A stretch of 64,000 bases of DNA from Occultella glacieicola. Its GTDB lineage: Bacteria; Actinomycetota; Actinomycetes; Actinomycetales; Beutenbergiaceae. Both the position numbers and the translations under genes were made by a program. Each line of letters starts with the position of its first letter. The stretch's first letter is position 1. Where the stretch lies: NCBI RefSeq assembly GCF_004353825.1, contig NZ_SMNA01000005.1:248001-312000 (forward strand), given 5' to 3'. The notes below the pieces were generated by a model. That model was not told the DNA's origin and did not search any database. It was given only the letters and a program-made list of their open reading frames with translations. This document shows, one piece after another, positions 1-40,555 of the stretch.

Positions 1-192
1 GAACTCCGGGGTGAGGACGCTGGCCATCCGTTCCTTGCCTCCGGCGATCTGCAGCTTGGTGGCGTAGTCGGCCTCGCTCCAATGCAGGTCGACCCCGACG
101 TGTTCGAACGTGGCGTTGAACGCGACCCGATGCCCGTCCCGTTCGGTGTCCGCGAGCACACCGTCGCAGTCGAAGATCAGCGTGGCGCTCAC
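1..192 (-). CDS. HAD-superfamily phosphatase, CbbY-like (3' part outside window)
   Basis: Only the first 64 codons are present; the gene runs off the left edge. It starts with GTG at 192, overlapping the aldolase stop as GTGA, so it is the last visible gene of a SorC-aldolase-HAD operon. HAD motif I reads FDCDGVLADTERDGHRVAFN near residues 7-26, with the nucleophile and acid/base aspartates DCD, and this spelling is typical of CbbY-type sugar-phosphate phosphatases. The cap domain begins after it. Family members dephosphorylate sugar phosphates or bisphosphates in the cytoplasm; pairing with a ketose-bisphosphate aldolase suggests removal or salvage of a sugar phosphate. The substrate cannot be told from this fragment. 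Confidence 0.85.
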   Translation of the reverse strand, partial: MSATLIFDCDGVLADTERDGHRVAFNATFEHVGVDLHWSEADYATKLQIAGGKERMASVLTPEF

Positions 193-1052
193 AAGACCTC
201 CCAGGCCTTCCCGGCGCTGCCGAACATCCGGATGTGCTCGGCGGCCATCTCCTGCACCGCCGCGTGCTGCGCCCGGAACAACGAGGGCGGGTCGTAGGTG
301 CCGGGGTTGGCGCTCATGTAGTCGTAGCCGGAGGACATGAACCGGATCTTCAGCGCCGTGGAGATGTTCACCTTCGCGCAGCCGCGGGCGATCAGGTCGG
401 CGAACTGGTCCTCGCTCATCCCGGTGCCGCCGTGCAGGGCCACCGGGATCCCGGCCCGCTCGACGATGTCGGTCACCCGCTGGTTGTCCAGCGTGGGGGT
501 GGCGCGGTACATGCCGTGGGCGTTGCCGATGGCGGGGGCGAACACGTCCACGCCGGTGGCCTCGATGAACGCCAGCGCGGTCTCCAGGCTGAGCTCGGGC
601 GGCGGGGCGTTCCCGGTCAGGTCCTCCACCCGGGCGAACGGCTCGATCTCACCCTCGACCAGGGCGCCGTAGTCGCGAGCCTGAGCGACCACCTCGACGC
701 ACTGGCGCTGGTTCTCCTCGACGCTCAACTTCGAACCGTCGAAGAGCACCGAGTTCCACCCCGCCCGCAGGCACGCGGTGATCAGGTCCCGGTCCGGGCA
801 GTGGTCCAGGTGCAGCGCCACGGGCACGCTCACCGCCTCGGCCAGCTCGGCCCAGAGCACGTAGAGCACGTTCACGCCCATCGCCTCGACCGTCTTCACC
901 GACGTCTGCACGATCAGCGGCGCCTGCAGCTCCTGAGCCGCGGCGAGCACGGCCGCCATGGTCAGGTCGTTGACCACGTTGATCGCGGCGACCCCGTAGC
1001 GCTCCTCGAACGCCCGGTCCACGATGTCCTGCGTTCGCACGATCGGCATCAT
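189..1052 (-). CDS. Class II fructose/tagatose-bisphosphate aldolase family protein
   Basis: 287 residues, normal length for a class II (zinc-dependent) ketose-bisphosphate aldolase. Visible landmarks are HLDH (about residues 81-84; zinc and catalytic region), GEIE with the central Glu, GNAHG (a later zinc-ligand histidine), ALHGGTG (phosphate binding) and KVNIST near the C-terminus. The enzyme would reversibly split a ketose bisphosphate or related sugar phosphate into dihydroxyacetone phosphate and an aldehyde. Two ATGs occur in tandem (1052 and 1049); the GGAGG at 1060-1056 is better spaced for the second. It lies 13 bp after the SorC regulator and overlaps the HAD gene, so all three are probably co-transcribed. 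The exact sugar (fructose, tagatose or a deoxy-inositol intermediate) is not determinable. Confidence 0.9.
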   Translation of the reverse strand: MMPIVRTQDIVDRAFEERYGVAAINVVNDLTMAAVLAAAQELQAPLIVQTSVKTVEAMGVNVLYVLWAELAEAVSVPVALHLDHCPDRDLITACLRAGWNSVLFDGSKLSVEENQRQCVEVVAQARDYGALVEGEIEPFARVEDLTGNAPPPELSLETALAFIEATGVDVFAPAIGNAHGMYRATPTLDNQRVTDIVERAGIPVALHGGTGMSEDQFADLIARGCAKVNISTALKIRFMSSGYDYMSANPGTYDPPSLFRAQHAAVQEMAAEHIRMFGSAGKAWEVL

Positions 1053-1065
1053 CCACCTCCGGCTC

Positions 1066-2052
1066 TCATGACTCCTGCGCCCGGTCCGCCCGCGCCCCCG
1101 ACTGCAGGTTGAGGACGGCCCGGGCGTTGGGCTCGTCCACCACGAGCGCGTCGACGATGCCGGCGCGCAACACCCCGAGGATCGCCAGCGGCTTCTCCGG
1201 TCCGCACGCGACGGCCACGACGGCGGGGATGTTCCGCAGTTCAGTCAGCGACAACCCCATCACCCGTTCCGAGTGAGGCGCGGTGATCGCAGCACCCGCG
1301 GCGTCGAGGTAGGTCCCGAGCACGTCCCCGACCGCACCGCGCGCCCGCAGCCGCGCGATCTCGGCGGCGGACAGGCAGCCGGACCGCACCATGGTGCACT
1401 CGTCGTCGGTCCCGCCGATCCCCACGAGGGCCAGCGCCGCCGTCGCGGCGAGATCGAAGACGCCCCCGACGGCGTCCTGCCGGCGCAGTTGGTCCCGCAC
1501 CTGGCCGTCGGCCACGTAGGCGGGCGCATAGAGACTGTGCGCGGTGCCGTCGGCGGCGTCCGCGAGCACCCGGGCGATCTCGTTCGGGTTGGTCGGAGCG
1601 TCGACCGACGGCGATCCGCCCATCGCGCTGACGAACACGCACCCGGTGGCGGTGGGCTCCCGGAACGCGGCGGCCAGCGCGGCCAGGTCTCGCCCGTGCC
1701 CGACAGCCACCCGCTGCCCGTCCGCCAGGCGCCGCTCCAGGTACCGGGCCGCGCTGCGGCCCACCAGCGCGCGCTGCTCGGCCGGCTCCGCGGCGGCGGG
1801 CGCCACGATCGCGTGGCGGAGCCCGAAGACCTCGGCGAGGCGGTCCTCGAGGCCGAGGTCGAGCCCGCGCGGGGTGTCGATGTGGATGTCGACGACGCCG
1901 GTGGCCCGGGCCCGCTCGAGCAGCCGGCCGACCTTGGGCCGGGACAGCGCGAACTCCTCGGCGATCTGCTCCTGGGTGCGGGCGTCCACATAGGACCGGT
2001 GCGCGATCCGGGCGAGCAGTTCGTGCTCGTCAGGATTCAGTCCCACGGGCAT
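1066..2052 (-). CDS. SorC/DeoR-type sugar-binding transcriptional regulator
   Basis: 328 residues with the two-part layout of the SorC family. An N-terminal helix-turn-helix (about residues 22-50, QEQIAEEFALSRPKVGRLLE) is followed by a sugar-phosphate-binding domain with the motifs AVGHGRDLAAL, VSAMGG, and LVGIGG near residue 210. SorC proteins bind palindromic operators and are released or activated by a phosphorylated sugar. The start ATG has GGAG 7 bases upstream. It heads the operon carrying the aldolase and HAD phosphatase, and a perfect 12-bp inverted repeat lies immediately upstream (2070-2099), so it probably regulates its own operon. The effector is likely a phosphosugar metabolised by the downstream enzymes (inference). 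Confidence 0.9.
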   Translation of the reverse strand: MPVGLNPDEHELLARIAHRSYVDARTQEQIAEEFALSRPKVGRLLERARATGVVDIHIDTPRGLDLGLEDRLAEVFGLRHAIVAPAAAEPAEQRALVGRSAARYLERRLADGQRVAVGHGRDLAALAAAFREPTATGCVFVSAMGGSPSVDAPTNPNEIARVLADAADGTAHSLYAPAYVADGQVRDQLRRQDAVGGVFDLAATAALALVGIGGTDDECTMVRSGCLSAAEIARLRARGAVGDVLGTYLDAAGAAITAPHSERVMGLSLTELRNIPAVVAVACGPEKPLAILGVLRAGIVDALVVDEPNARAVLNLQSGARADRAQES

Positions 2053-2069
2053 GGCCGACTCCGAAACCT

Positions 2070-2099
2070 GAGCATCCGCTCACCACTGAGCGGATGCTC
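2070..2099. promoter_or_regulatory. Perfect 12-bp inverted repeat upstream of sorC-type regulator (probable operator)
   Basis: The arms GAGCATCCGCTC and GAGCGGATGCTC flank a 6-base centre. The element ends 18 bp upstream of the regulator's ATG. Its symmetry, position and neighbour suggest a SorC-family autoregulatory operator; an mRNA hairpin in the leader is the alternative. Confidence 0.6.
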
Positions 2100-2235
2100 G
2101 CCACGGTAGCAGCGCGCGAACCGGATCGGAAGGGGCGCACTGACGCTGAACTCAATGCAGAAGATCGACGATGCGCTCCGTGTCGCGCTGGCCCTCCGTG
2201 TTGGCCGGAGCAGCGGGCGATCTGGCCGGGAGGCA

Positions 2236-4314
2236 TCAGTACGGGAAGCGACCCCCGCCCTGGCCGAGCCCGGTACCGCCGTCGGGCAGTAGGGCGGCCG
2301 CCGGGTCGGAGGCGAGCGCGGCACCGGAGTCCACGACGGTCGGCGCTTCGAACGTCGCCACCCCTTCCTCGGGGACCAGCCGCAGCCGCGGGGTCGGCCG
2401 CGGCGCCCCCTTCGCCACGGCGTCGTCGGCGGTCCAGTCGTCGACTAGAGTGAGCAGCTCATCGACCAGGTGGTTGATCCGATTCCGCTGCCCGGCACCC
2501 GGCTGGTAGGAGGGCAGCGGCGCCTCGGCGCCGGAGCCGGCCAGGTCGGCGTAGTCCGTGGCGCCCGGAACCGGCGTCCGGTAGCCGGTCCCCCATGCGC
2601 CCAGCCAACCGTGCAGGCCGGTGGTCGAAGTTCGCATCCGGATCCACCGATGGTTCTCGAACCCGTAGCCGGGCGTGACACCGGGATCCTCGCCAGCGAA
2701 CTGGTCCACGAGTTTCACCGCGCCGGCCCGGCCGCGGGCGGCGAGGGCGTCGACGATCTCCTTGGGCATGGCCAGGTTCATCCCGCCCTCGGCACCGGAG
2801 TGGTAGATGGTGACCACCCGGTCCCGGTAGCCGGGCAGGACCAGTTGGGCGTTGTCGACCCACACCTGGGAGGTGGTCACCAGGGCGTGCGCGAACCCGA
2901 GCAGTCCGGGCAGGCCCCTCGGCGTGAGCGAGTGCCAGTGGCGCAGCGCGCCGACGGCGTTGTGGGTGGGCAGGAACGTGTTCTTGGCCGGGTCCGGGTC
3001 GGGGGCCCGGCCCTCGGCGAGCTGGCCGAGGTTGATCGCGAACGTGGGCCGCTTCGGCAGCGGGCTGTCGAAGAAGTGCACGGGCAGGTTCGCGCACAGT
3101 CCGCCGTCGGAGAACCAGTTCGGTTCGAACTGCGGCAGCGCGACAAGCGCGGCGAGCGCCTCCTCGACATCCGCGTCCGGGTGCCCACCCAGCCACGCCT
3201 CGGCCTCTTTGCGGTACCGGGCGTTCTCGGCCCGGCTGAAGTCGATCGCCTCCAGCGGTACCGCCGAGATCAGCACCGGGAAGCTCAGGCTCATCCGGGT
3301 CGCGACCACGATCGGGACGTCCGCCGGCGCCGGGAACGGAACCAGCCCGCGGCGCCGCGCACAGGCGTGGGTGAGCTCGGTGTACCGGTCCCGGACCGTG
3401 CCGCCGGTGACGGTGGGCGGGTGCGCCTCGATCCAGGCGACCACATCGTCCGGGAAGTAGCGCCGCCACAGCGCCGGGTCCAGGTAGTACCCGCGGGCCT
3501 CCCACGGCATCGACATCGGCTGGTACCGGGTCACGTTCGTGGTCATCATCCGCAGCGTGATCCCGGCGGCGGCGAGCTGCCCGAACGTCACCGGTCCCGC
3601 GCCGGAGCCACCGGCAGCGCCGGAGCCACCGGCAGCGCTGGCAGCGCCGGACCCGCGGCGCCCGGCCATCGTCTGGATCCGCTCGTGCAGCCACGGGGTC
3701 AGCGCGGGCGCATTGCGGCCCCCGTACCCGGCCATCCCGGTGCACATCCCCCACCCCTGCAGCCGGCCGAGCAGCCCGCCGGCGGCGATGACGAGACCGA
3801 ACACGGCACCGAGCAGGGCCAGGACCACCCCGGCGAGCACCCCGGCCCACCGGCCACCGCCGCCGCCGGAGATGCCGGCGACCACCGCGAGCACCGCGCC
3901 CGGCAGGGCGCCGAGCACCAACGCCCACCAGAACCAACGCAACGTTGCGAACACCTTCGCACGCACCGCCGTCGACCCCTTCGAGCCCATCCCGGCGGTG
4001 GCGACCCCGAACAGCGGGGCCGCCGCCCGGGTCGGCTGGAACAGCCGGAACAGGGTGGACCCACCGGCGGGCGACGGTGCGGTGATGTCGTCCGGCATCC
4101 GCTCCAGCTCGGCGAACCCGCCGCTCGCGCGACCGAGTTCGGCGGCGGCGGCCGCGGCGGCGGCAATCGCCCCGGCGGAGGCGCCACCGACCGACCGCAG
4201 CCGGTAGGTGCGGGCCAGTTCGGTGACCGCCCGCGGGTAGATCACCCCGGAGGTGATCCCGCCCTTCATCACGAGGTCACACTCCAGTTTCGGGTCCGAC
4301 CAGTCCTGACTCAC
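2236..4314 (-). CDS. Patatin-like phospholipase with internal membrane segments
   Basis: 692 residues. The start chosen is GTG at 4314, which has an AGGAGG (4325-4320) five bases upstream; the open frame extends further upstream only by overlapping the HNH gene. Patatin features: an N-terminal KGGITSGVIYP oxyanion-type loop (residues 17-27), nucleophile elbow GGASAG (43-48, Ser46), and the Asp of the Ser-Asp dyad in SDGG near residue 402. Between them, roughly residues 125-185 hold strongly hydrophobic stretches that look like two or three transmembrane helices. Patatins are acyl hydrolases of membrane lipids. It sits 22 bp behind the HNH gene in the same operon, which fits a membrane-attacking effector controlled by the ATPase (inference). 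Lipid turnover unrelated to defence is the alternative. Confidence 0.82.
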   Translation of the reverse strand: MSQDWSDPKLECDLVMKGGITSGVIYPRAVTELARTYRLRSVGGASAGAIAAAAAAAAELGRASGGFAELERMPDDITAPSPAGGSTLFRLFQPTRAAAPLFGVATAGMGSKGSTAVRAKVFATLRWFWWALVLGALPGAVLAVVAGISGGGGGRWAGVLAGVVLALLGAVFGLVIAAGGLLGRLQGWGMCTGMAGYGGRNAPALTPWLHERIQTMAGRRGSGAASAAGGSGAAGGSGAGPVTFGQLAAAGITLRMMTTNVTRYQPMSMPWEARGYYLDPALWRRYFPDDVVAWIEAHPPTVTGGTVRDRYTELTHACARRRGLVPFPAPADVPIVVATRMSLSFPVLISAVPLEAIDFSRAENARYRKEAEAWLGGHPDADVEEALAALVALPQFEPNWFSDGGLCANLPVHFFDSPLPKRPTFAINLGQLAEGRAPDPDPAKNTFLPTHNAVGALRHWHSLTPRGLPGLLGFAHALVTTSQVWVDNAQLVLPGYRDRVVTIYHSGAEGGMNLAMPKEIVDALAARGRAGAVKLVDQFAGEDPGVTPGYGFENHRWIRMRTSTTGLHGWLGAWGTGYRTPVPGATDYADLAGSGAEAPLPSYQPGAGQRNRINHLVDELLTLVDDWTADDAVAKGAPRPTPRLRLVPEEGVATFEAPTVVDSGAALASDPAAALLPDGGTGLGQGGGRFPY

Positions 4315-4336
4315 GACGACCTCCTGGGGTGGGGGC

Positions 4337-5191
4337 TCAGTCCGGCGGGAACAGCCGGTCGTAGTAGGCGGCGACCACCTGCTTGGCCATCGCCGTGTAG
4401 GGCGCGTCGTCCGCGACGAACGTGGCGACGTCGGCCACGCCTCGCGCAAACTGGTCCCGCAGGTCCTGATCGTCCGGATGCCGCCCGATCGCCTCCTTCA
4501 GGAAGGCCAGGCTCTCCAGGTGACCGCGCAGCGCACGCACCACCCGCCGTCGGGTCTCGACCAGCCCACGCCGCTGCAGCGCGCACACGGCGATGGTGGT
4601 CTCCCCCTTGCGGCTCGTCCGCCCGGAGGCGTACCGGTGCGGGAGCACCCACCCCTCGTCGATGCCGGTGGTCTGCCACACGAAGTCGAGGTGCTTCTCG
4701 GGGAAGTCGAGGTAGGGATGCAGGAGCAGCCGCTCCTCCCGCGCCTCCTGCCCCGGTGCGGTGGCCCGGTCGGCCTCGTCACCGATCGGGAACGCGTTCG
4801 CCTTGCCCGCGGTCGCCCGGACGCCGGGCAGGTCCTGCCCCCGGGGGCTGTTGCAGTCCGTGCAGGAGGGCAGCAGGTTGTCCCACTGCGACGCGAGCCA
4901 GTAGTAGCCGGGCGGGGTGCGCACACCGTCGATGGTCACCTCACCCTTGGGCCGGTAGTGCTCGACGGCGACCGGCTGGGTCGCGAGGTAGGAGGACTCG
5001 CAGTAGGCGCACTTGAAGCCGAAGGCCGCCTCGAGGGCGTCCTTCACGTCCGGCGCCTTGTAGATGGCGTACTTGTTGTACTTGTCCACGCCGTTCCAGG
5101 TCGCATAGAACGCGGCCGCGCGGGTGCGTTCGCGCACGGCGCGGTCGGAGGACAACGTGGCCGGCTCGGGCGGGCGCGGCACCCGTCTCAT
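4337..5191 (-). CDS. HNH endonuclease family protein (PtuB-like)
   Basis: 284 residues, starting at the ATG that overlaps the stop of the upstream ATPase gene (ATGA). A zinc-stabilised HNH module is clear: CAYC (Cys61, Cys64), VEHYRPK with His78, WDNLLPSCTDCN with Asn105, Cys110, Cys113 and Asn114. The HYRPK / NLLPSC..CN signature is that of the HNH proteins paired with AAA ATPases in Septu (PtuB) and in some retron modules. The C-terminal half (about residues 150-284) contains the charged alpha-helical region often found in such proteins. It is translationally coupled to the ATPase, so a complex is likely. Expected activity is DNA or RNA cleavage, with catalytic residues intact. Confidence 0.88.
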   Translation of the reverse strand: MRRVPRPPEPATLSSDRAVRERTRAAAFYATWNGVDKYNKYAIYKAPDVKDALEAAFGFKCAYCESSYLATQPVAVEHYRPKGEVTIDGVRTPPGYYWLASQWDNLLPSCTDCNSPRGQDLPGVRATAGKANAFPIGDEADRATAPGQEAREERLLLHPYLDFPEKHLDFVWQTTGIDEGWVLPHRYASGRTSRKGETTIAVCALQRRGLVETRRRVVRALRGHLESLAFLKEAIGRHPDDQDLRDQFARGVADVATFVADDAPYTAMAKQVVAAYYDRLFPPD

Positions 5192-7206
5192 CGCTTCGCC
5201 CCCGACGCCCGAGACGTCGCAGCCGCCCCCGCGGCCCCGGGCAGTCGCGCGGTCCACAGGGCCGCGAGGTCCTCGGTGACTTCCGCGGAGGTGCGCTCGA
5301 CGGCGTCCCCGACCTGACGCCGTCGGGCGATGAACTCGTCGGCGGCGGCGAGCAGCAGGCGGTCCCGCTCGGTGGTGCCGAGCACCCCGATCTCGTCGAG
5401 GCGGGCACGGACCCGGTCCAGCTCGGCCCGCTGGTCGGCGGACCGGCGGGTCAGTCCCTGGAGCCGGTAGTAGGTCGCCCACAGGTCGTCGAGCTCGGGG
5501 TCGTCGGTGCTGCCCAGGCCGAAGTGTTCGGAGGTGAGCAGCTGGTCCACCCGCATGCCCTGCACCGAGGGCAGGTCCGTGATCGCGATGACGTCGGCCT
5601 CGGCGTTGCGGCGGATCACGGTGACCTCGCCGTCGAGCAGGCCGCGCAGGCACAGCGGGTCGTGGGTGGACACGATGAACTGGACCCTCGGCATCAGGAC
5701 GCGCAGCGCGGTCACGATCCGCATCCGCCAGCGTGGGTGCAGGTGCGCACCGAGCTCGTCGATGAGCACGATCCCCTCCGCCAGCTCCACCCGGTCCCAG
5801 CGGGTCAGGACGGTGCGCAGCACGTCGCAGGCCAGCACCAGCATCGACTGGTAGCCGTCGCTGAGCTCGGTCAGCTCGGCGACGGAGTTCAGCTGGTGGA
5901 TCCGCACCACCCGGCGCCGGCGGTCCGCCTCGATGCGGGCGGTCTCGGAGAGCGCAAGCAGGTCCACGAGGCCCTCGGTGACGTCGGCGAACACCGGTTC
6001 CGTCAGGGACAACAGCCAGTGGGTGGGGTCGGTGAGCGGGCGGAACGGGTCGAACAGGTTGTCCACCCAGGCGCTCGCGTGGTCGGTGCGCTCGGGGACC
6101 GGCTCCCGGGGCAGCAGCCGGGTCGCGCCGTAGCCGAGGAGCAGCACCGGGGCGGCCTCGGGCCCGGTGAACTCGGTGTCCCCGGTGCGCCAGGAGAGTT
6201 CGAGCGGGCGCGCCTCCCCGGTGAGGTAGACCTGCACCCGGCCCACCCGCGCGCGGTGGCGCAGGTAGGCGCCGGCGTCCATGGCGAGCTCGCGTCGGTA
6301 GGCGCCGCCGATGAGGGTGAGCGCGATCGCGTGCAGGATCGAGGACTTGCCGCACCCGTTCTCCCCGAGCAGCACGGTCCACGGACCCTCCTGGCTCGTC
6401 GACTTGGAGAAGTCCAGGTCCAGATCCCGGATCGGCCGGAAGTTCTCGATGACCACCCGGTCGATCCACTTCGCCGCGCCGTAGTAGCTCGGCGCCTGGG
6501 TGGGCGCGAGCGGGAGGTTCAGGTCGTAGCTCGGCCGGGGCAACGCGACTGCGGGGGTGTGCCCGACACCGCGTTCGGTCATCGACGGGAACACCGCTGC
6601 GGCCGGGGCCGGTCCGCCCGGCGCGCCTGCGCCGGCCGGCGTCGGAGTGGCCCCGATCTGCCGGGCGCGCCGCTGCACGAGGGCCGACCGGTTCAGCGCC
6701 AGCACCTCGATGGTGACCCGCCCGCGTTCGCTGGCGCCGGCCACGGTGCCGTCGGTCTGGTAGAGGAGGTGGGCGCCGAGGTCCTCCCGGCCCGGGTCCA
6801 GGAGCAGCGCGTCCTCGCTCGCCCACGGTTCATCGGCGTCGGAACGGGCGCCGCGGACCGGGAACCGGCTGCCCTTGGCCCGCACGCAGTCCACGCAGGC
6901 GGGCAGCAGGTTCGTCCAGGTGTATTCCAGCCACCGGTAGTGGCCCGGGCTCACCGACCCGTCCTCGCCGACGGCGTTGCCGGGCGGGCGGTGGTGCGTC
7001 ACAACCGCGGTGGTCACCTCGAGCGGGGACTCGCAGTAGGCGCAGCGGTCGCCGGTCATCTCCAGGAGGCGCTCGATGATCGCCTGCGGCGCCGGCCCGG
7101 GGGCGATCTTGGTGGCCGCCGCCTCGTGCTCGCGCGATGTCAGGCCCGCGTTCTGCGAGCGGGCGCGGGCGAGTTCCTCGGGTTCTGCTGGGCGCACGAG
7201 TCGCAT
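5188..7206 (-). CDS. HNH-AAA ATPase fusion (PtuA/OLD-like ATPase with N-terminal HNH-like module)
   Basis: 672 residues. Residues 50-115 hold an HNH-like zinc module: CAYC (55-58), HHRP (71-74), TNLLPACVDC (98-107); the Asn that follows the last Cys in the neighbour protein is Val here. A Gly/Ala/Pro linker (185-215) leads to an SMC/OLD-type ATPase: IENFRPI, Walker A GENGCGKSS (281-289), signature-like LSDGYQS (449-455), Walker B with VLIDELGAHLHP (480-491), and STHDP (513-517). A helical tail follows; no Toprim domain is visible. PtuA-type ATPases sense phage and control an HNH partner. ATG at 7206 has GGAGG four bases upstream. First of three coupled genes. Confidence 0.85.
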   Translation of the reverse strand: MRLVRPAEPEELARARSQNAGLTSREHEAAATKIAPGPAPQAIIERLLEMTGDRCAYCESPLEVTTAVVTHHRPPGNAVGEDGSVSPGHYRWLEYTWTNLLPACVDCVRAKGSRFPVRGARSDADEPWASEDALLLDPGREDLGAHLLYQTDGTVAGASERGRVTIEVLALNRSALVQRRARQIGATPTPAGAGAPGGPAPAAAVFPSMTERGVGHTPAVALPRPSYDLNLPLAPTQAPSYYGAAKWIDRVVIENFRPIRDLDLDFSKSTSQEGPWTVLLGENGCGKSSILHAIALTLIGGAYRRELAMDAGAYLRHRARVGRVQVYLTGEARPLELSWRTGDTEFTGPEAAPVLLLGYGATRLLPREPVPERTDHASAWVDNLFDPFRPLTDPTHWLLSLTEPVFADVTEGLVDLLALSETARIEADRRRRVVRIHQLNSVAELTELSDGYQSMLVLACDVLRTVLTRWDRVELAEGIVLIDELGAHLHPRWRMRIVTALRVLMPRVQFIVSTHDPLCLRGLLDGEVTVIRRNAEADVIAITDLPSVQGMRVDQLLTSEHFGLGSTDDPELDDLWATYYRLQGLTRRSADQRAELDRVRARLDEIGVLGTTERDRLLLAAADEFIARRRQVGDAVERTSAEVTEDLAALWTARLPGAAGAAATSRASGAKR

Positions 7207-7312
7207 GGGACCTCCGCCGACCGGTGGGCGACATCATCCCACCGGGCGGGTGGCTCCGGTGGGCGTTTGCCAGCGAAGAGGCGGCCGCGAGGGCCGTGAT
7301 ACGGCAGGCGGG

Positions 7313-7552
7313 TCAGGACCGGCTGATGTTCGGCAGTGCGGCGAGCGCGGTGTCCCCGGCGGCGTCGCGGTGCAGCATCGGCACGATCACCCAGCCGGGT
7401 CCGGCGCCACCGGGCCCGGTGACGTGGGCGGACTCGTCATCTGGGGTGGTCCAGTCGGATCGTCGCCATTCGGTCACCACGGCGTCGGCGACATCCCCCA
7501 GCTTCATCACGTGGTCGAGATCGCACACCCACGCACACGCTGTCTCACCCAT
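7313..7552 (-). CDS. Small hypothetical protein upstream of the HNH-AAA operon
   Basis: 79 codons, ATG with a GGGGAG about 8 bases upstream, lying 106 bp before and in line with the ATPase gene. No domain is recognised. The product is soluble-looking, with mixed charge and no signal peptide (MGETACAWVCDLDHVMKLGD at the start). It may be an extra component of the operon, an unrelated small protein, or a chance frame in GC-rich DNA. Confidence 0.4.
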   Translation of the reverse strand: MGETACAWVCDLDHVMKLGDVADAVVTEWRRSDWTTPDDESAHVTGPGGAGPGWVIVPMLHRDAAGDTALAALPNISRS

Positions 7553-7662
7553 GTGCCCACTCCCCGATTCGATCCAATTCGTTCCCTTGAGCGCTCTTCA
7601 CGCTAGTCCGGGATGTGATACAGAGCACTAGTGGGATCGGGTGATCTTGGGGCTGGACGCTC

Positions 7663-7698
7663 CTCACCCCGGGGTGAGCTCGGGGTGAGGTCTCACCC
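7663..7698. promoter_or_regulatory. Cluster of GGGTGAG half-sites, including a perfect 16-bp palindrome
   Basis: CTCACCCCGGGGTGAG is a perfect palindrome at 7663-7678. It is followed at once by another GGGGTGAG and an inverted CTCACCC. The cluster lies in the intergenic region about 100 bp before the L-2-hydroxyglutarate oxidase gene. Repeated half-sites in both orientations suggest a repressor or activator site; the protein is unknown. Confidence 0.45.
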
Positions 7699-7795
7699 TC
7701 CTCCAACCGGATCGGCGGACTCGCCACCGGCGGGCCCCTTCCCTGGCACGATCACTGGTGGCCGAGGCGACGGACGAGGACGGGAGCACTCGATC

Positions 7796-9028
7796 GTGAA
7801 GGTGCTGGTGGTGGGTGCGGGGATCCTCGGGCTGGCGACGGCGGCGCGCCTGGCCCGTCGCGGCGACGAGGTGGTGGTCGTGGACAAGGAGCCCGGGGTG
7901 GCGCACCACCAGACCGGCCACAACTCCGGGGTGATCCATTCCGGTCTGTACTACGCGCCGGGCAGCCTGAAGGCGCGGCTGGGGACCGCGGGCGCGGCCA
8001 GCATGACGGCGTTCGCGCAGGACCACGGCGTGCCGGTGCGGACCTGCGGGAAGCTGGTGGTCGCCGTCGATGACGCCGAGCTGCCCGCCCTGGCCGAACT
8101 GGCCCGGCGGGCCGAGGCGAACGGGGTGCCGGCGCGGCTGATCGACGCCGCCGAGGCCCGTGAGTACGAGCCGAACGTCTCCTGCGTGCGGGCGCTGCGG
8201 GTGGAGAGCACCGGCATCGTGGACTACGTGGGCGTGTGCGAGGTGCTGGCCGGGCAGATCGCCGACGGCGGAGGGCAGGTCCGTTTCGGCCGCACTTTCC
8301 GCGGTGCCCGCACCGTGGGCGGGCGCGTGCGCGCCCGGGTGGACGTGCTGGGCGCCGACGGCGCCGCGACGGACACGGGCCGCGAGGACGTCGTCGCCGA
8401 TGCGCTGGTGGTCTGCGGCGGACTGCACGCCGACCGGCTCGCCGACGCCTGCGATGTGGTGCCGCAGGCCCGGATCGTGCCGTTCCGCGGTGAGTACTTC
8501 GAGCTGGCCCCGGCCAAGACGGACCTGGTCCGCACCCTGATCTATCCGGTGCCAGACCCCCGGTTCCCGTTCCTGGGCGTGCACCTGACCACGATGATCG
8601 GCGGCGGCGTGCACGCCGGCCCGAACGCGGTGCTGGCCCTGGCCCGGGAGGGTTACACCTGGCGGGACGTGAATCTGGCCGACCTGCGCGGCTCGCTGTC
8701 CTGGCCCGGCCTGTGGCACCTCGGGCGCCGCAACCTCGTGCCCGGGGCGAACGAGGTCATCCGGTCCCTGTCCCGGACCCGGTTCGCGGCCAGCCTGTCC
8801 CGGCTGGTCCCGGGCATCACGGCCGCGGACCTAGTGCCGGCTCCGGCCGGGGTGCGGGCCCAGGCGCTGCGCCGGGACGGGTCCCTCGTGGACGACTTCC
8901 TGATCCAGCGGTCCGACCGCCAGCTCCACGTGCTGAACGCTCCTTCGCCGGCGGCGACGGCGTCCCTGGAGATCGCGGCCCACCTCGAGTCGGAACTGGA
9001 CGCGATGCTCGCCGCCGAGGCACGCTGA
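7796..9028 (+). CDS. lhgO: L-2-hydroxyglutarate oxidase (FAD-dependent)
   Basis: About 410 residues from GTG 7796, normal for LhgO; the frame is open further upstream, but the FAD-binding strand begins right at this start. The Rossmann motif is [19 protein letters not shown], followed by the family hallmark [19 protein letters not shown] near residues 41-59. Further conserved stretches are PFRGEYFEL and a C-terminal [14 protein letters not shown]. Family members oxidise L-2-hydroxyglutarate to 2-oxoglutarate, passing electrons to O2 or the quinone pool; in bacteria the enzyme acts in metabolite repair and in lysine/glutarate catabolism. No other glutarate genes are nearby. A GGGAG lies about 10 bases before the start. 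Confidence 0.88.
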
Positions 9029-9032
9029 CCGG

Positions 9033-9473
9033 ATGAGCCACATGGATCAGCAGGTGCATTTCGTCACCCTCGCCACCGCGGACCTGGACGGTGCCCGCCG
9101 GTTCTACGCCGACGGCCTCGGCTGGACGCCCGCCCTGGACGTCCCCGGCGAGATCCTGTTCTTCCAGGTCGCGCCCGGCCAGATGCTCGGGCTCTTCGAC
9201 GCGGTGAAGTTCAACGAGGACCTCGGCGCTCCGGCCGGGCCGGCCTCGGTCTCCGGGGTGACACTGGCCCACAACGTGGCCGGACCGGACGAGGTGCGCG
9301 CCGTGGTCGAGGCCATGACCGACGCCGGGGGCACCGTGCTCAAGGCCCCGCAGCCGGGCGCGTTCGGTGGGGTCTTCCACGCGCACGTGCAGGATCCCAA
9401 CGGGGTGATCTGGGAGATCGCGCACAACCCGGGCTGGACGGTCGACGCCGACGGCACGGTGCGGTTCGGGTAG
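9033..9473 (+). CDS. VOC (glyoxalase/bleomycin-resistance fold) protein
   Basis: 146 residues. Two beta-alpha-beta-beta-beta modules can be traced: the first begins [20 protein letters not shown], and the second ends [19 protein letters not shown], with the metal-ligand-like Glu in WEIA. This fold includes glyoxalases, extradiol dioxygenases and antibiotic-sequestering proteins, so the substrate is open. It starts 4 bp after the LhgO stop, and co-transcription is likely. Confidence 0.8.
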
Positions 9474-9550
9474 GTCCCCGGCAGGCCGGGCCCGGGACCC
9501 GGTCCGCCGGCGCTCGTGGCCGTTGTCGGTGGCGCGTGCCATCGTGAGCC

Positions 9551-9928
9551 ATGACCACCCACACCCACACCATTCCGCTCTCGATCGACTACATCGAGAT
9601 CTCGGTCACCGACCTGCAGGCCGCCAAGGACTTCTACGGCGGGGCGTTCGGCTGGACCTTCACGTCCTACGGGGACGAGTACGCGGGCATCCGCACCCCT
9701 GCCGAGACCGACGGGGAGGAGGCCGGCGGCCTCGCCCTGGTCGCTGAGCCGAGACCGGCCGGCGGACCTCTCGTGCTGCTCTACAGCGGCGACCTCGACG
9801 CCACCGTGCGCGCGGTGACGGGCGCCGGCGGCCGGGTCGTGAACGGGCCCTACGAGTTTCCCGGCGGGCGACGATTCCATTTCACCGACCCGAGCGGTAA
9901 CGAGCTCGGAGTCTGGGGCCCACGGTAG
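9551..9928 (+). CDS. VOC family protein
   Basis: 125 residues, single VOC unit pair: N-terminal IDYIEISVTDLQAAKDFYGG and C-terminal GGRRFHFTDPSGNELGVWGP. It resembles the small glyoxalase-like proteins with one metal-ligand Glu near the end (NELGVW). Same strand as the preceding VOC gene after a 77-bp gap; the two proteins differ enough that a recent duplication is not evident. Substrate unknown. Confidence 0.8.
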   Translation: MTTHTHTIPLSIDYIEISVTDLQAAKDFYGGAFGWTFTSYGDEYAGIRTPAETDGEEAGGLALVAEPRPAGGPLVLLYSGDLDATVRAVTGAGGRVVNGPYEFPGGRRFHFTDPSGNELGVWGPR

Positions 9929-9938
9929 GGCTACAGCA

Positions 9939-10814
9939 GTGACCATAGGAGGCCCGGACCCCACGGTGGACCCGTCGGAGCACGCGATGCTGGCTGACCT
10001 CGGCAGCCGCTCCGGCCTGTGGACCGACCGTACCCAGCCCACGACCGTGGCTCGGGGCAGCGAGAACACCACGTTCGCCGTCGGCGGCTTCATCGTCCGG
10101 CGCACGGTCGACGTCGACGCCCTGACCCGGGAGGTGGCGCTGCTGGAGGCGCTCGCCGGCGAGACCTCGATCCCGGTGCCGGTCCCGCTGGTGCACCGGA
10201 GCGACCTCGGCGTCCTCGTGTACCGGGCCCTGGGCGGCGAGCCGTTGCTGGGTCGGCCGGACCTGATCGGCCCCGCTGTGGAAGGGCCCCTCGTCGACGT
10301 GCTCGGCGCGTTGCGGAGGATCCGCCCGGATCCGCCGTTGGTCGTGGACGACCACCCGAACGATGCGTGGCTCGCCGGGGCCCGCCAGGACTTCGAGACC
10401 GCGCGGTCCCACCTCGGTCCCGAACGGGCGGCGGCCGTGGCGCAGTTCCTGGACCAACCGCCGCCACCGGCCGGACCGGTGCTGGTCCCCCAGCACAACG
10501 ACCTCGGGGCCGAGCACATCCTGGTCGACGATCGCGGACGGGTCAGTGGCGTCATCGACTGGAGCGACGCCGCGCGCACCGAGCCGGCCCGTGACATCGG
10601 GCGGCTCCTGCGGGACCTCGGCCCCGCCATCGCCCTCGCGGTCGCGGCCGGGCTCGACGGCCAGTCGACCGCGGAGGAACGCCTGCGGATGACCTTCCAC
10701 GCGCGGTGCACCTGGCTCGAGGACCTCGCCTACGGCCTCGCGGATCCGGCCGGGCGGTCGGCGTACCTGGCGAACGCCGAGCGCGTGTTCGGGCACGTCT
10801 TCGGCCACGCCTGA
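9939..10814 (+). CDS. Aminoglycoside phosphotransferase (APH)-family kinase-like protein
   Basis: Up to 291 residues. The APH fold is shown by the nucleotide-loop region GSENTTFAVGGFIVRR, the catalytic-loop motif QHNDLGAEHILVDD (Brenner-type HxDxxxxN with an altered second half) and GVIDWSDA, the metal-binding Asp. The family includes antibiotic kinases, homoserine/choline kinases and many uncharacterised small-molecule kinases; resistance should not be assumed. Three in-frame starts are possible: GTG 9939, GTG 9966 (AGGAGG 13 bases upstream) and ATG 9987 (GGAG 6 bases upstream), the last two having better ribosome-binding sites. The stop overlaps a hairpin shared with the convergent ribH. 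Confidence 0.78.
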   Translation: MTIGGPDPTVDPSEHAMLADLGSRSGLWTDRTQPTTVARGSENTTFAVGGFIVRRTVDVDALTREVALLEALAGETSIPVPVPLVHRSDLGVLVYRALGGEPLLGRPDLIGPAVEGPLVDVLGALRRIRPDPPLVVDDHPNDAWLAGARQDFETARSHLGPERAAAVAQFLDQPPPPAGPVLVPQHNDLGAEHILVDDRGRVSGVIDWSDAARTEPARDIGRLLRDLGPAIALAVAAGLDGQSTAEERLRMTFHARCTWLEDLAYGLADPAGRSAYLANAERVFGHVFGHA

Positions 10815-10827
10815 GGACGACCTCAGG
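10810..10827. terminator. Hairpin spanning the ends of two convergent genes
   Basis: CCTGAGG and CCTCAGG form a 7-bp stem with a 4-base loop. The left arm contains the kinase-like gene's TGA and the hairpin abuts the ribH stop on the other strand. It is short and lacks a T-run, so it is a possible compact bidirectional terminator rather than a strong one. Confidence 0.4.
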
Positions 10828-12598
<1,771 letters not shown>

Positions 12599-35755: not shown

Positions 35756-38700
35756 TCAGGACCAGTGCGGCGGGACGTCGCGACGGAGCCGTTCGTCGTC
35801 GGAGTCCGACGAGCCTTCCCCCCAGGCGCGGTCCTCGTCCTCCCAGGCCCGGTTCGGGATCGTCGGCTCGGCTCGCCCGGCCGTGCCGGTTCGGGGCGCG
35901 TCCGGGTGCGCGTCGGTGGATCCGGCGTCGGCGCCGCCATCGCCCTGCGTGTCGTCGGCAGGCTCCTCGCCGGCAGCCTGGGCGTCGCCGGCGAGCTCAT
36001 CGTCGGCGGCCTCGGCGTTGCCGACGGGCTCATCGTCGGCGGCCTCGGCGTCGCCGGCGAGCTCATCGTCGGCGGCCTCGGCGTCGCCGGCGAGCTCATT
36101 GCCGGCAGCCTCGGCGTTGCCCGCGAGCTCATCGTCGGCGGCCGCGGCGGCCTCCGCCGGGGGCGAGCCGTCCGCCCCGGTGACGTCGCCGCCGTCGGCC
36201 TCCCCGGCCGCTCGCGTTGCGTCGGTGGCGGCCGGGGAGTCCGGAGCGGACCCGAGCCCCGAGCGCCGCACCGCGGCGCCGAGAACGGCGTCCACGTGGG
36301 TGCCGCGCTTGGCGATGCCCAGCTCGGCGCGGAGTTCCTCGCGCAACGCCTCGCTCGAGCGGGGCTCGCCGTCCGAGGCGAGCCACCCGACCAGGGCGTC
36401 GAGTTCGTCGTCGCCGTACCGGCTCAGCGGCTGTCCCGGCGGCACGTCGGGCCGGTCCCCGCGCAGTCCGGCGATCGGGGACCTGGTGCCGGGCCGGGTC
36501 GGCTGCTCACCGACCATGGCGATGCCGCGGGCGGACGTCGTGGGACGGGCCGCGGAATCACGGTCCGGTTCCTCCTCCCCGGCGACCTCGTCCACGAGAT
36601 CCGTGGGCGGGATCCCGGACGCCGGGCTCGTGACCGTCACGTTCCGCTCGGCGAGCACGGCCCGCACGTCCTGCGCGATCCGTTCCGCCTCGCCCTGCGG
36701 ATCCATGAACACCGCCGTGGAGAAGACCATCCGGACCCGCCATCCGCGGTTCTGCAGCCGTTGCACCCAGTGCCGGTCACGCCGTCGCAGGCTCGGTTCG
36801 GCGACGTACTCCGGGTCGTCGGTGAGGACCGCGACCAGCAGCTCCCCCGGCAGGTCCGGGTGCCCGATCGCGAGCGGGATGCGTACGCCCCCGGGCACGC
36901 CGTAGCGGGGCACCACGGTGAGGCCGAGGCGCCAGAGCCGCTCGGCGAGGTCGACGAGCAGTCGATCGGGGGCGTGATCGTCGGTGTCCTCGTCGAGTTC
37001 GGCCCGGCCGGCCGCGGCGAGGGCGAGCACGTCCTTGAGCATCCTGGACCCCTCGGACCGCAGCCGTGCCGGGTCCAGGTCCTCGGCTGCGAGGCAGCTG
37101 ACCACGGTGAACCGGTGCCGCACCGCGTCGAGCGCGTCCACGAGGTACTCGGCCCCGTCGCGTCCGGAGACGGCCCCGAACCGGTGCAGCACCCGCCCGT
37201 GCGGCGTCTTGCCGTAGCCGAGGCTGAAGATGATCGCGTCCCGGCGCAGGCCGGCGACCGACTCGATGTCGACGACGGTGAACGCGTCCGTGCCGGACTG
37301 GTCGAAGAACGCGGACATCGCGGTGCTGCCGGCCGCCGTGGAGAGCACCGCCTCACGGACCCGGTCCGCATGCCGGCTGTTCAGTGCGATCACGGCGAGG
37401 GACTGTTCCGGCCGGGTCAGTGCGTGGTCGATGACGAGGTCGACGACGCGGTCCACCTCGGCCTGCACGCTCTCGACCACGTCCGAGCCCGGAGCCGGCA
37501 TCCCGGTGCCGTCGACCAGGTCCAGGGTGATCCGAGGGCTGTGCGGCGGGGCCGGCACCGGCCGGATGATGTCCGCATAGCCGTGCCGGGCGAGGAACGC
37601 GGCGATGTCGGTGTCCTGGTCCACCCGGTCCCCGGGCAGCGTTGCCCGCGGCAGGAGGTCCAGGGCCCGGACGGTCCCGGTGCCGCCACGGCGGGTGTCG
37701 CCGAAGACGACCACCTGCTTCGCCCGGACGATCGCGGAGATCACCTGCTCCACGGGCAGGTGCTGCACGGCGTCGAGCACGAGCAGGTCCACGTCACGGC
37801 CGGGCGGGAGCACCTGCGGCACCACCATCGGTGGCACGATCCACACCGGCCGGGGTGCCCAGGCCACCTCGCCGAACCGGTTCAGCAGGGCCTTGAGGTC
37901 GGTGGCCCCACGCATCACCGTGCGGTAGAACTCCTGCGCGCGGGGACGGTCGGCGGAGATCGCGGCGCGCACCCGGGCGGCCGATCCGGCCAGCACCGGT
38001 GCGACCAGGCTCGCGGTCTGGGTCTCGTCCAGAGCCCGCAGCCGCGCGGCCGCCTCGTCCAGGGACTCCGCCTCGAGGCCGGCCATGGCCGGGTCCTCGG
38101 CGAGCATCTCCTCCAGCACACTCGACCACCAGGCGAGGTCGAACTCCGCGCCCACGAGGCTCGTCGGAACCCGCCGCTGGCCCAGGTCGGCCACCAGCGG
38201 CGCGAGACCGAGGCCGTTGAGCTTCGCGATCACCGCGGCCCGCTCCGGCATCTGCCGGACCGCCGCGTCGTCGGTACCCAACCGTTCGATGCGGTTGGCG
38301 AGTTCGGCCAGCGGCACCTCGGACAGGGTACGGCCACCCAGGGTGGGGGCCAGCACGGGCGCGAGTCGGCCGACGAGGTCGGTGACCTCCTGCGCCGTCC
38401 GGACGATCGCCGTCATCCCCTCGGGAACCCGCGGCCAGCCGCCCCCGGCGCAGTGCCGACGCCAGACGTCGCGGCGGGTGGCGACCTCGACCAGTTCCGC
38501 GTGCAGATCACCGACCGTGACCCCGGGTCGGAGCAGGTCCTTGGCCTGCTTGCGCAGCCGGCGCCGGGCACCCCAGGCGAGGTCGACCTGGTGCTGCGCT
38601 CGCCAGGCGCGGCTGGCGGTGGCGGCGACCATGTCCGTGGCCGACCGCTCGAACACCTGCGGCGTGAAGACGTCCAGGGAGGACTGGATCCCGTCGAGCA

Positions 38701-40555
38701 GGGTGAGCTGCTCGGACCACTGCTCGAGCGTCTGGGCCTCGTCGAGTCCCGTCTGAGCCGCGGCCGCGTCGACCTGCTCCCGCAGCCTCGGCAGCACCTC
38801 GTTCAGGGCGCGCACGTCCGCGAGCGTGGCGGTCGCGTGGTCGGCGCTGGTCAGCTCGGCGCCGAACCACGGCGTGTCCGAGGCTCGCAGCTGGAACGCC
38901 CCGAGCGCTCCGGCTCGGGCGAGCTCCTCGCGGGCCCGCTCGCGTTCGTCGGAGTCCATCGAGCGCACCGCCGTGCCGGACAGGCGCACCTGGGTGCGCG
39001 GACCGGGGCGCTGCGCGGTGAGCTCGGCCAGGGCCTGGAGCGCCTGGTACGCGCTCGCCGACCAGGGCGGACGCGGGGTGTGCAGGGCGTTGATGTATCC
39101 GGCGAGCTTCGTCCGGGCCGCCAGCAGGGCCTCGCGGTCCTTCGCGACCGCGGCCGGATCCACCGAAGGCTCGGGCGGGTTCAGCCCGTCCACCAGGCGC
39201 CGGGCCGCCGTGCGGTTCCAGCTCGGGTCGTTGCTCAGGTCGAGGGCGAGGTCGCCCACCCCGACGGCCCGCATCGCGTCCAGGAGGGCCCGGGCGGCCC
39301 GGCGGGTGCCGGGCACGTACAGCACCCGCTTGCCCTCGGCGGCGGCCTGCGCCACCACAGCCGTGACGGTGGCGGGCACATCCACCCCGGGCGGGGCGTC
39401 GACGAGCACGTGACCGCCGGCGCCGACGGCGTCCAGAACCCGGTGCTGGCCGGCGTCCAGGTCCCCGGCGCCACGTTCGGCCCCGGGGTCGCGGTCGCCG
39501 TCACCGGCCGAGGGCAGGGTCGACCGGAGCGCCGACTTGGCCTCGTCGTCGCCCGCGAGTGCGGCGACCACGTCGTGTGCGGCGAGCGCGCTCTGCTGGG
39601 CCTCGAGGTCGTCCGCGAGGGCCTGACCCGGGTGCACGAACGCGCCGACGATGATCCGGGAATCCATCCGGAACTCGGGCAGGGCCTTGCCGAGCTCCGC
39701 GATCGTGGCCAGGGCCGGACTGGGCGAGAAGCCGTGCGTACCCATGGTGGACCGTGCGATCTCGGCCGGGTCCAGGTCCACCCCGTGGGCGCGCAACTCG
39801 CGCACGAGCACCGAGTTGAGCTCGACGGCGGGATCGAGTTCGAGGTCGATCTCGGCATCCGAGCCCGGTCCGGTCAGGCGGACCGGCCGCAGCAGCACGG
39901 GAGCGTGCACGAGGCGGGGCGCCGGGGCGCGTGTGCCGGACGCCGGGGTCGCGGGGTCCTCGGCCAGAGCGGGCGTCGTGCCGGCGTCCTCGGCCAGCAC
40001 GGTCGTCGCGTCCGGGTCGGGCTGCGCGGCCGATTCGGACCCGCGGGCCGCCGCCGGGTCCGACCCGGGCTGCGCCGTCGACCCCTCGTCCGGACCCGGC
40101 GCGGGCCGGCCGGGTGCCGCGTCGCTGTGCTCACCGTGTGACTCCGCGCGCCAGGTGGCGACGCCGACGGCCACGTACGTCGGGGCGACCCCGTAGCGCT
40201 GAGCGAGCTCCTCGGTCCGCGCGCCCATCACTCGGGCCCGCCGCCGGGCCTGGGTCAGCGCGGACCCCTCCCGCACCAGGTTCGACAACCGGGTGGCGCG
40301 CCCGGCGAACAGTTGCGCGATCCCGCTCGGGTGGGCGGCGGTCAGGTCGACGAGGGCGTCACCGAGTGCGTCCACGTCCCAGAGGGCGCTGCCGCCGGCG
40401 AGATCCGCGAGCCGGTTGCGCCACTGTGCCGCGGCGCCGGAGACCGCACGTTCGCGCGCGGTCGGTTCCGGGGCCGTCGGCTCCACCTCCGGAGGCTGCG
40501 GCGCCGACGAGGCCTTGCGGCCGCCGGGCAGTGGGAATCGAACGGGCGGGGTCAC
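35756..40555 (-). CDS. Very large SF1-helicase / Vsr-like nuclease homologue with degraded catalytic motifs
   Basis: 1,599 residues. An N-terminal WRNRLADLAGGSALWDVDAL is like the start of DUF4011-type proteins. The helicase core can be traced, but key residues differ: motif I region VDAPPGVDVPATV (about 386-398) lacks GKS/T; motif II region LLVLDAVQHLPVEQV (about 920-934) lacks DE; the late motifs IESVAGLRRDAIIFSLGYG (about 1098) and GAEYLVDALDAVRHRF lack the usual QG.ERD and TRAR residues. Residues 1218-1285 match the Vsr/MTES_1575 endonuclease fold (RDRHWVQRLQNRGWRVRMVF), with the acidic metal motif altered to LTDDPEY. The tail carries acidic 11-residue repeats. Intact frame, so a maintained non-enzymatic role is likely. 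Confidence 0.72.
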   Translation of the reverse strand: MTPPVRFPLPGGRKASSAPQPPEVEPTAPEPTARERAVSGAAAQWRNRLADLAGGSALWDVDALGDALVDLTAAHPSGIAQLFAGRATRLSNLVREGSALTQARRRARVMGARTEELAQRYGVAPTYVAVGVATWRAESHGEHSDAAPGRPAPGPDEGSTAQPGSDPAAARGSESAAQPDPDATTVLAEDAGTTPALAEDPATPASGTRAPAPRLVHAPVLLRPVRLTGPGSDAEIDLELDPAVELNSVLVRELRAHGVDLDPAEIARSTMGTHGFSPSPALATIAELGKALPEFRMDSRIIVGAFVHPGQALADDLEAQQSALAAHDVVAALAGDDEAKSALRSTLPSAGDGDRDPGAERGAGDLDAGQHRVLDAVGAGGHVLVDAPPGVDVPATVTAVVAQAAAEGKRVLYVPGTRRAARALLDAMRAVGVGDLALDLSNDPSWNRTAARRLVDGLNPPEPSVDPAAVAKDREALLAARTKLAGYINALHTPRPPWSASAYQALQALAELTAQRPGPRTQVRLSGTAVRSMDSDERERAREELARAGALGAFQLRASDTPWFGAELTSADHATATLADVRALNEVLPRLREQVDAAAAQTGLDEAQTLEQWSEQLTLLDGIQSSLDVFTPQVFERSATDMVAATASRAWRAQHQVDLAWGARRRLRKQAKDLLRPGVTVGDLHAELVEVATRRDVWRRHCAGGGWPRVPEGMTAIVRTAQEVTDLVGRLAPVLAPTLGGRTLSEVPLAELANRIERLGTDDAAVRQMPERAAVIAKLNGLGLAPLVADLGQRRVPTSLVGAEFDLAWWSSVLEEMLAEDPAMAGLEAESLDEAAARLRALDETQTASLVAPVLAGSAARVRAAISADRPRAQEFYRTVMRGATDLKALLNRFGEVAWAPRPVWIVPPMVVPQVLPPGRDVDLLVLDAVQHLPVEQVISAIVRAKQVVVFGDTRRGGTGTVRALDLLPRATLPGDRVDQDTDIAAFLARHGYADIIRPVPAPPHSPRITLDLVDGTGMPAPGSDVVESVQAEVDRVVDLVIDHALTRPEQSLAVIALNSRHADRVREAVLSTAAGSTAMSAFFDQSGTDAFTVVDIESVAGLRRDAIIFSLGYGKTPHGRVLHRFGAVSGRDGAEYLVDALDAVRHRFTVVSCLAAEDLDPARLRSEGSRMLKDVLALAAAGRAELDEDTDDHAPDRLLVDLAERLWRLGLTVVPRYGVPGGVRIPLAIGHPDLPGELLVAVLTDDPEYVAEPSLRRRDRHWVQRLQNRGWRVRMVFSTAVFMDPQGEAERIAQDVRAVLAERNVTVTSPASGIPPTDLVDEVAGEEEPDRDSAARPTTSARGIAMVGEQPTRPGTRSPIAGLRGDRPDVPPGQPLSRYGDDELDALVGWLASDGEPRSSEALREELRAELGIAKRGTHVDAVLGAAVRRSGLGSAPDSPAATDATRAAGEADGGDVTGADGSPPAEAAAAADDELAGNAEAAGNELAGDAEAADDELAGDAEAADDEPVGNAEAADDELAGDAQAAGEEPADDTQGDGGADAGSTDAHPDAPRTGTAGRAEPTIPNRAWEDEDRAWGEGSSDSDDERLRRDVPPHWS
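35950..36145 (-). repeat. In-frame 33-bp tandem repeats (acidic 11-residue units)
   Basis: About six copies of a unit encoding DELAGDAEAAD and variants (DELAGNAEAAG, DEPVGNAEAAD, DELAGDAQAAG) near the C-terminus of the large helicase-like protein. Units are 33 bp and highly similar at DNA level (gagctcatcgtcggcggcct on the plus strand), so copy number is likely variable between strains. Confidence 0.8.

Follow-up and report, generated by a model that had tools for sequence, protein, structure and literature searches.

Background

Septu systems consist of a PtuA ATPase and a PtuB nuclease, and cyclic-oligonucleotide-based antiphage signalling systems (CBASS) may use a patatin effector, CapV. 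Here we describe a locus of Occultella glacieicola that has features of both. It lies in a stretch of 64,000 nucleotides (contig NZ_SMNA01000005.1, positions 248,001 to 312,000), referred to as the window, and consists of three open reading frames (ORFs) on the same strand, genes A, B and C, at window positions 7206-2236 (-). We consider it probable that this locus is a fused-PtuA Septu antiphage system with a membrane-anchored patatin phospholipase as an added third component. The trio is the new part; the A-B pair and the PtuA fusion are already known.

PtuAB has been described as a PtuA hexamer with two PtuB (PMC12198126, PMC12948488), and PtuAB systems as degrading phage DNA or host tRNA-Tyr (PMC11555353, PMC13096335). 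Septu type I is like A-B in having an ATPase and an HNH nuclease, in gene order and in translational coupling. The locus differs from it in that its PtuA has an HNH-like N-terminal region, which the PADLOC profiles already include, and in that a patatin gene follows as the third, its product bearing a hydrophobic hairpin. Septu type II, or type I-A retron, is composed of a reverse transcriptase, PtuA and PtuB (PMC8565338); it shares with our locus the addition of a third gene to PtuAB, which here is a lipase. The three-gene operon ptuXYZ is also built around a PtuA-like ATPase, together with a DUF262 nuclease and a PIN-BECR toxin (PMC11980606), but its nuclease is said to be unlike PtuB and the third position is taken by an RNase-like toxin, whereas here we find PtuB and a patatin. 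Phospholipases are named among CBASS effectors (PMC12948488), and gene C resembles CapV of CBASS as a patatin-type phospholipase and presumed membrane effector; C differs by its hydrophobic hairpin and by matching no PADLOC model.

Two of these known systems were considered as identities for the locus and rejected. The 41 window genes searched with PADLOC 2.0.0 matched 11 families at E 1e-5, and neither a reverse transcriptase model nor a CD-NTase (the CBASS nucleotidyltransferase) was among them. No Rfam family reached its gathering score in window positions 1-12000 (a search that covers msr-msd RNAs only as far as Rfam includes them), and a retron-type Septu was rejected on this and the reverse transcriptase result. 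A CD-NTase was likewise found neither in the best 25 of 202 families for A nor in the best 25 of 57 for B, and C matched 0 PADLOC models, the CapV-type patatin profile included, at E values up to 1; CBASS was rejected on these grounds. Among the papers listed (for several searches the top 20-40) in the literature searched, which mostly excluded subscription papers, so that a prior description is possible, we found no Septu system with a patatin or phospholipase. Only one paper among the matches listed contained both words, Septu and patatin, and its accessible text used them apart.

Results and discussion

Genes A and B form a Septu pair

In PADLOC, A matched the PtuA profile PDLC00292 (726 positions) with E 7.7e-190 and B matched the PtuB1 profile PDLC00328 with E 8.2e-66. 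Residues 41-184 of A also matched the PtuB1 profile PDLC00339 (E 8.7e-30). Positions 33-194 of PDLC00292 align with the N-terminus of A, and positions 1-244 of the same profile match B too (E 1.6e-45); a PtuB-like N-terminus thus belongs to the PtuA profile itself, and the fusion seen in A is a known form. Pfam assigned AAA_21/AAA_15 to A. When a profile of nine A proteins was run against the PDB, PtuA was found with E 5.2e-31; the E values of PtuB chains ranged from 3e-8 to 2e-7. The predicted model of A is of low confidence (mean predicted local distance difference test, pLDDT, 61.6), and it found PtuA structures as its first fold matches (about 2e-15); a structural comparison with PtuAB had been suggested by the original prediction. 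With a PtuA-type ATPase and an adjoining PtuB HNH gene, A and B are, as judged from their sequences, Septu itself and not a new system, and the system is predicted to be antiphage by homology. The original prediction of a new defence operon therefore stands only for the trio, which is unreported in the literature searched. Its proposed search with defence profiles identified A and B and left C without a match.

The features of the three genes, in window coordinates, are as follows.

5188..7206 (-), gene A: PtuA-type ABC/AAA ATPase whose N-terminus is a PtuB-like HNH region; ATG start, 672 amino acids (aa)
6637..7206 (-), fused HNH-like region of A: residues about 1-190; Cys motifs retained, THHRPP replaces EHYRPK
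5191..6501 (-), ATPase part of A: residues about 236-672; GENGCGKSS, VLIDELGAHLHP
4337..5191 (-), gene B: PtuB-type HNH endonuclease; ATG at 5191, stop at 4337, 284 aa
4320..4325 (-), AGGAGG ribosome-binding-like site ahead of C, read directly from the sequence
2236..4314 (-), gene C: patatin-like acyl hydrolase; GTG start, 692 aa
4177..4179 (-), Ser46 codon of C: predicted nucleophile (GASAG)
3766..3930 (-), helical hairpin of C: residues 129-183; a pair of hydrophobic helices that lie between the predicted catalytic Ser and Asp
3106..3108 (-), Asp403 codon of C: predicted catalytic Asp (DGG)

The coordinates bear out the tight spacing that had been claimed for the locus. A and B overlap by 4 bp at an ATGA junction, and the GTG start of C lies 22 bp past B and five bases after the AGGAGG. 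A longer ORF for C with a TTG start at 4449 would overlap B and seems less likely. Scanning the locus for promoters and terminators gave nothing informative.

In order to compare the two HNH regions, we aligned 28 of 30 A N-termini (two short ones were omitted, and 2 of the 28 were unreadable) with 29 B rows. The motifs of B are intact (CAYCE...EHYRPKG...WDNLLPSCTDC), as had been proposed, and the Glu-His ahead of the RPK motif is retained in all 29 B rows. In the fused HNH of A, Glu and His occur together in 0/26 rows, His in 9/26 and Glu in 2/26 (L053, L215). The clade of the window is among the nine that retain His; its THHRPP has Thr in place of Glu. For Septu EcB88, defence is reported to depend on both the His and the Asn of the H-N-H motif in PtuB (PMC13096335). 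The nuclease is most likely B, with its catalytic residue assigned by alignment, and the fused copy in A is probably structural. The original prediction of an HNH-AAA fusion accompanied by another HNH protein thus holds for the presence of both, but a second active nuclease is doubtful since the fused HNH looks degenerate across most of the family; an active nuclease within A is unlikely family-wide but conceivable in Occultella, which retains His and has Thr in place of Glu.

Gene C is a patatin with a predicted membrane hairpin

Pfam found the patatin family PF01734 in C at 1.6e-5 and 25.7 bits, just under the gathering cutoff of 27.7, and an NCBIfam search with C gave no match. The AlphaFold model of C has a mean pLDDT of 89.3 and a predicted template modelling (TM) score of 0.88. 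With this model Foldseek found patatin folds: two chains had E < 0.001, PlpD was matched at probability 1.00 with a target TM of about 0.6, and plant patatin at 0.92. The alignments are gapped, with large root-mean-square deviation and a query TM of only about 0.2, which is due to large additions to the fold; the model thus indicates that C has a patatin core extended by these additions.

The predicted catalytic residues are well conserved. In an alignment of 54 members (the window and 53 of 79 named patatin loci, see below), D403-G404-G405 is invariant (54/54) and S46 is conserved in at least 90%, and GxSxG is present in 99 of 102 patatin rows of a wider set. C accordingly has the fold, the GxSxG and the DG[GA] Ser-Asp dyad of the patatin family, with hydrolysis itself being predicted. 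Its hydrophobicity peaks at residues 131-149 and 159-177, where helices 129-148 and 153-183 of the model form a long hairpin that is predicted to span the membrane. Two or more hydrophobic segments precede residue 260 in 90 of the 102 rows and one in the other 12. The patatin with internal membrane helices that had been anticipated is therefore recovered, the membrane part as a prediction. Phage carriage of C was considered and rejected: C had no match in the phage collection, and two relatives with 30% identity were found in viral contigs. For the A family, viral contigs held 61 loci with 24-50% identity, most of the matches being short.

The trio recurs in distant bacteria

The trio is present in all four Occultella genomes with order kept and similar spacing. 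Beyond the genus, we examined 79 named patatin loci, a non-random sample taken from the best 80 of at least 258 relatives, and found complete trios at 10 of them (10/73 when only loci flanked by 1 kb or more on each side are counted, 6/79 being at contig edges). Eight have the order A-B-C: Tessaracoccus oleiagri, Tessaracoccus MC1679, Arachnia, a Propionibacteriaceae metagenome-assembled genome (MAG), Occultella gossypii, Ensifer MPMI2T and two Tabrizicola MAGs. The order C-A-B is seen in Nocardioides astragali and an Acidimicrobiia MAG. Among plasmids, a relative of the window A was found in 29 records, with C about 1 kb on in 8; with a rhizobial A as query, C lay alongside in 10 of 28 records (five of these 10 plasmid trios were read with annotation and five by coordinates). 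Four conjugative plasmids of different rhizobia hold A, B and C with a B-C gap of 12-15 nt, and in all 18 trio loci measured, A and B either overlap or are separated by at most 1 base (nearest start codons). The order and similar spacing in 4/4 genomes of the genus, together with the recurrence elsewhere, indicate that the locus is not due to chance, and a trio confined to the window by accident is refuted by its recurrence in the genus, on plasmids and in other taxa.

Full-length fused A is itself uncommon. At E 1e-30, with four candidates scored per genome, A was found in 4/297 genomes of the order, all Occultella. Class-wide, full-length fused A is present in at least 2 of 394 genomes, own genome included, with any match at E 1e-25 in 9, and over 396 phylum genomes PDLC00292 was found in the own genome only; the full-length class count and the phylum count are lower bounds because two candidates were scored per genome. 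C was found in 13 of 99 relatives including the own genome (4 Occultella, 1 other genome of the family and 8 of the order).

The surroundings of plasmid trios are of interest with regard to defence. Among nine flanking proteins from four plasmid trios, chosen for their interesting annotation, seven match PADLOC models at E 1.8e-19 or better. IetA and IetS flank the trio in R. beringeri and GajA and GajB (Gabija) in Rhizobium CB3060, so that the trio adjoins IetAS or Gabija genes on two rhizobial plasmids; PDC-S73 lies about 2.4 kb upstream in R. indicum, and a type II methyltransferase (MTase_II) and an LmuB-like ATPase flank the trio in R. etli NXC12.

Some loci appear to be incomplete. Locus L117 of Mesorhizobium dw_380 (3481-5544, +) has only a C-terminal piece of B beside an intact-looking patatin and is probably a decayed trio. 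On the R. indicum plasmid (L043, 5794-8020, +), A is annotated as two ORFs, an HNH part and an ATPase part, and may therefore be interrupted there. Two more plasmid records match A in two pieces.

Origin of the trio

In order to assess whether the trio has one origin, we built a tree of 30 A proteins and a tree of 102 patatins. In the A tree, the 17 trio rows need 3 changes, of which at least 2 are forced by well-supported branches; 0 of 500 label shuffles gave as few as 3, and a single trio clade of the 17 rows is rejected (p 2e-5). In the patatin tree, which is a quick tree with some long branches, the trio label needs 7 changes, or 6 without eight edge or remnant rows. A single clade of actinobacterial A-B-C and alphaproteobacterial trios (15 rows, the two C-A-B rows being omitted) is rejected there as well (p 0.0097). 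Clades for these tests were named after the first trees had been viewed, and the rows include near-copies. A single vertical trio family is thus rejected on the A tree with 17 rows and on the C tree with 15 of the 17, which means either that C was added to the pair on more than one occasion or that it was repeatedly lost and swapped. The identities of A and C co-vary over 17 loci (Spearman 0.80, relatedness not removed). When the neighbours of patatin loci were clustered (5 loci were not callable), Septu genes were the largest cluster. No other cluster lay on the same strand as the patatin at a distance of 100 bp or less in more than two loci; the others were encoded on the opposite strand, lay at a greater distance, or were confined to close relatives (for example Pseudomonas and Stenotrophomonas).

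Proposed mechanism and alternatives

By homology, A would oligomerise as a PtuA-type ATPase and recruit the B nuclease, and the HNH-like region of A would be mainly structural, an intramolecular relative of PtuB. Infection would then release or activate PtuAB, and B would cut phage DNA or host tRNA. C, held at the membrane via its hairpin, would be switched on by the PtuAB complex or by the resulting state and would hydrolyse phospholipid, adding membrane damage to abortive infection. We infer control of C by PtuAB from the repeated gene linkage and from analogy to the action of the patatin effector in CBASS. Gene content, motifs and coupling were observed directly, as were the repeated association and, in the model, the fold of C.

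Several observations weigh against this explanation. The activation of C by A or B, its substrate and its toxicity are predictions, and the model of A is weak. In Occultella the locus occupies the same chromosomal site throughout, with metabolic genes around it. The nearest relative in the family (genome G022; locus L025, 66% identical) carries C alone, and 68 of the 79 patatin loci have no Septu pair or remnant beside them (6 of these at contig edges). On plasmids, 12 of 12 further A-B loci that were read and that fall outside the trio groups have no C in flanks of 5-6 kb: Klebsiella, Gluconobacter, Priestia, Roseovarius, Mesorhizobium, Phaeobacter, Janthinobacterium, Sphingomonas and four rhizobia. 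Conservation of the patatin beside A-B, on which the original prediction depended, is therefore seen in the genus and several other taxa but not in the closest family relative. The nine plasmid flanking proteins had been selected by annotation, and two of them gave one weak match (6.4e-11) and none. Flanks of chromosomal trios were read only by eye from their ORFs.

It is conceivable, but unlikely, that C functions in the operon without being a killer and instead tunes or restrains the pair as a membrane anchor, a sensor of envelope damage or a limiter of toxicity. The tight coupling and the co-divergence of A and C show linkage rather than role, and the hairpin would also suit an anchor or sensor. 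However, catalysis seems to be needed given the conserved dyad (Asp 54/54, Ser in at least 90%), and the existence of the 12 A-B pairs without C means that C is no required brake of such pairs. The many patatin loci without adjoining Septu genes and the family relative with C alone would rather favour C as an independent housekeeping lipase, linked to Septu by hitch-hiking. We find this improbable in view of the separate trio groups in both trees, the two gene orders, the four conjugative rhizobial plasmids with their short B-C gaps and the low count of full-length fused A in the class (at least 2 of 394 genomes). Domestication of the Occultella trio for a task other than phage defence, such as a plasmid or DNA-damage response, would fit its presence in every genome of the genus, with flanks alike in the three genomes read and the same aldolase gene close by in the fourth, and the fact that no mobile gene was noticed adjoining it. 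We regard this as very improbable, since the motifs are intact, A is patchy (4/297 genomes of the order, all of this genus, with four candidates scored per genome) and trios are carried on conjugative plasmids in other bacteria.

Under our preferred explanation of a Septu system with an added patatin, the apparent assembly of the trio more than once in distant bacteria suggests a variant that possibly attacks both nucleic acid and membrane. More generally, PtuA may be an infection-triggered platform that drives a membrane-lytic effector beside PtuB, with nuclease-plus-lipase Septu put together on at least two independent occasions from fused-PtuA pairs and patatins that were both local, the patatins being of a family serving several defence modules; we consider this broader proposal possible, although somewhat short of probable. 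If true, PtuA would be able to control effectors of different chemistry and patatin effectors would extend beyond cyclic-nucleotide signalling. This raises the question of whether one ATPase can license both nucleic-acid cleavage and membrane attack. The results also point to a patatin family, sometimes linked to defence, that is unrecognised by PADLOC 2.0.0.

Genomic neighbourhood and other observations

The surroundings of the trio in the window are no defence island and are mainly metabolic, with a class II aldolase, a regulator with a sugar-binding domain, an FAD oxidoreductase and riboflavin genes. Closeness to defence genes is seen for plasmid trios but not around the trio of the window. 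One further feature lies upstream of A.

7313..7552 (-), small ORF, 79 aa

This ORF has 84-85% identity in the other Occultella loci and was found only in Occultella among the loci compared. A weak guanidine-II riboswitch match at window 10809-10857 (+), with 22.1 bits against a gathering score of 32, is probably due to chance. About 29 kb from the trio, a protein of 1599 aa (window 35756-40555, -) matches the PADLOC candidate PDC-S37 (E 1.9e-105), which is the best PADLOC match in the surroundings of the trio, and Hhe (1.8e-35) and is possibly a second defence gene in the window. Other PADLOC matches in the window were to mad3 (1.5e-46), mad8 (6.1e-22), AriA (4.7e-13) and weaker ones, with one gene each.

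Patatins of the same family were also seen beside other genes. In a Coriobacteriaceae MAG (L068, 1138-7050, +), the patatin gene lies behind two others, an LmuA/Avs1a-like metallo-beta-lactamase gene (E 2e-64) and one for a protein of 945 aa that matches nothing in Pfam or PADLOC; this is possibly another defence operon. On a Deinococcus plasmid (L049, 2122-11338), an E2-E1-JAB gene lies near the patatin, as does a metallo-beta-lactamase gene with weak similarity to LmuA (1.5e-13). The patatin of a Mesorhizobium plasmid (L050, 4457-7608, +) is directly behind a gene annotated as pYEATS, for which Pfam was just below its cutoff. Finally, a Priestia megaterium plasmid (L056, 4119-8272) has a fused PtuA and PtuB together with an opposite-strand gene annotated as a retron St85 family reverse transcriptase.

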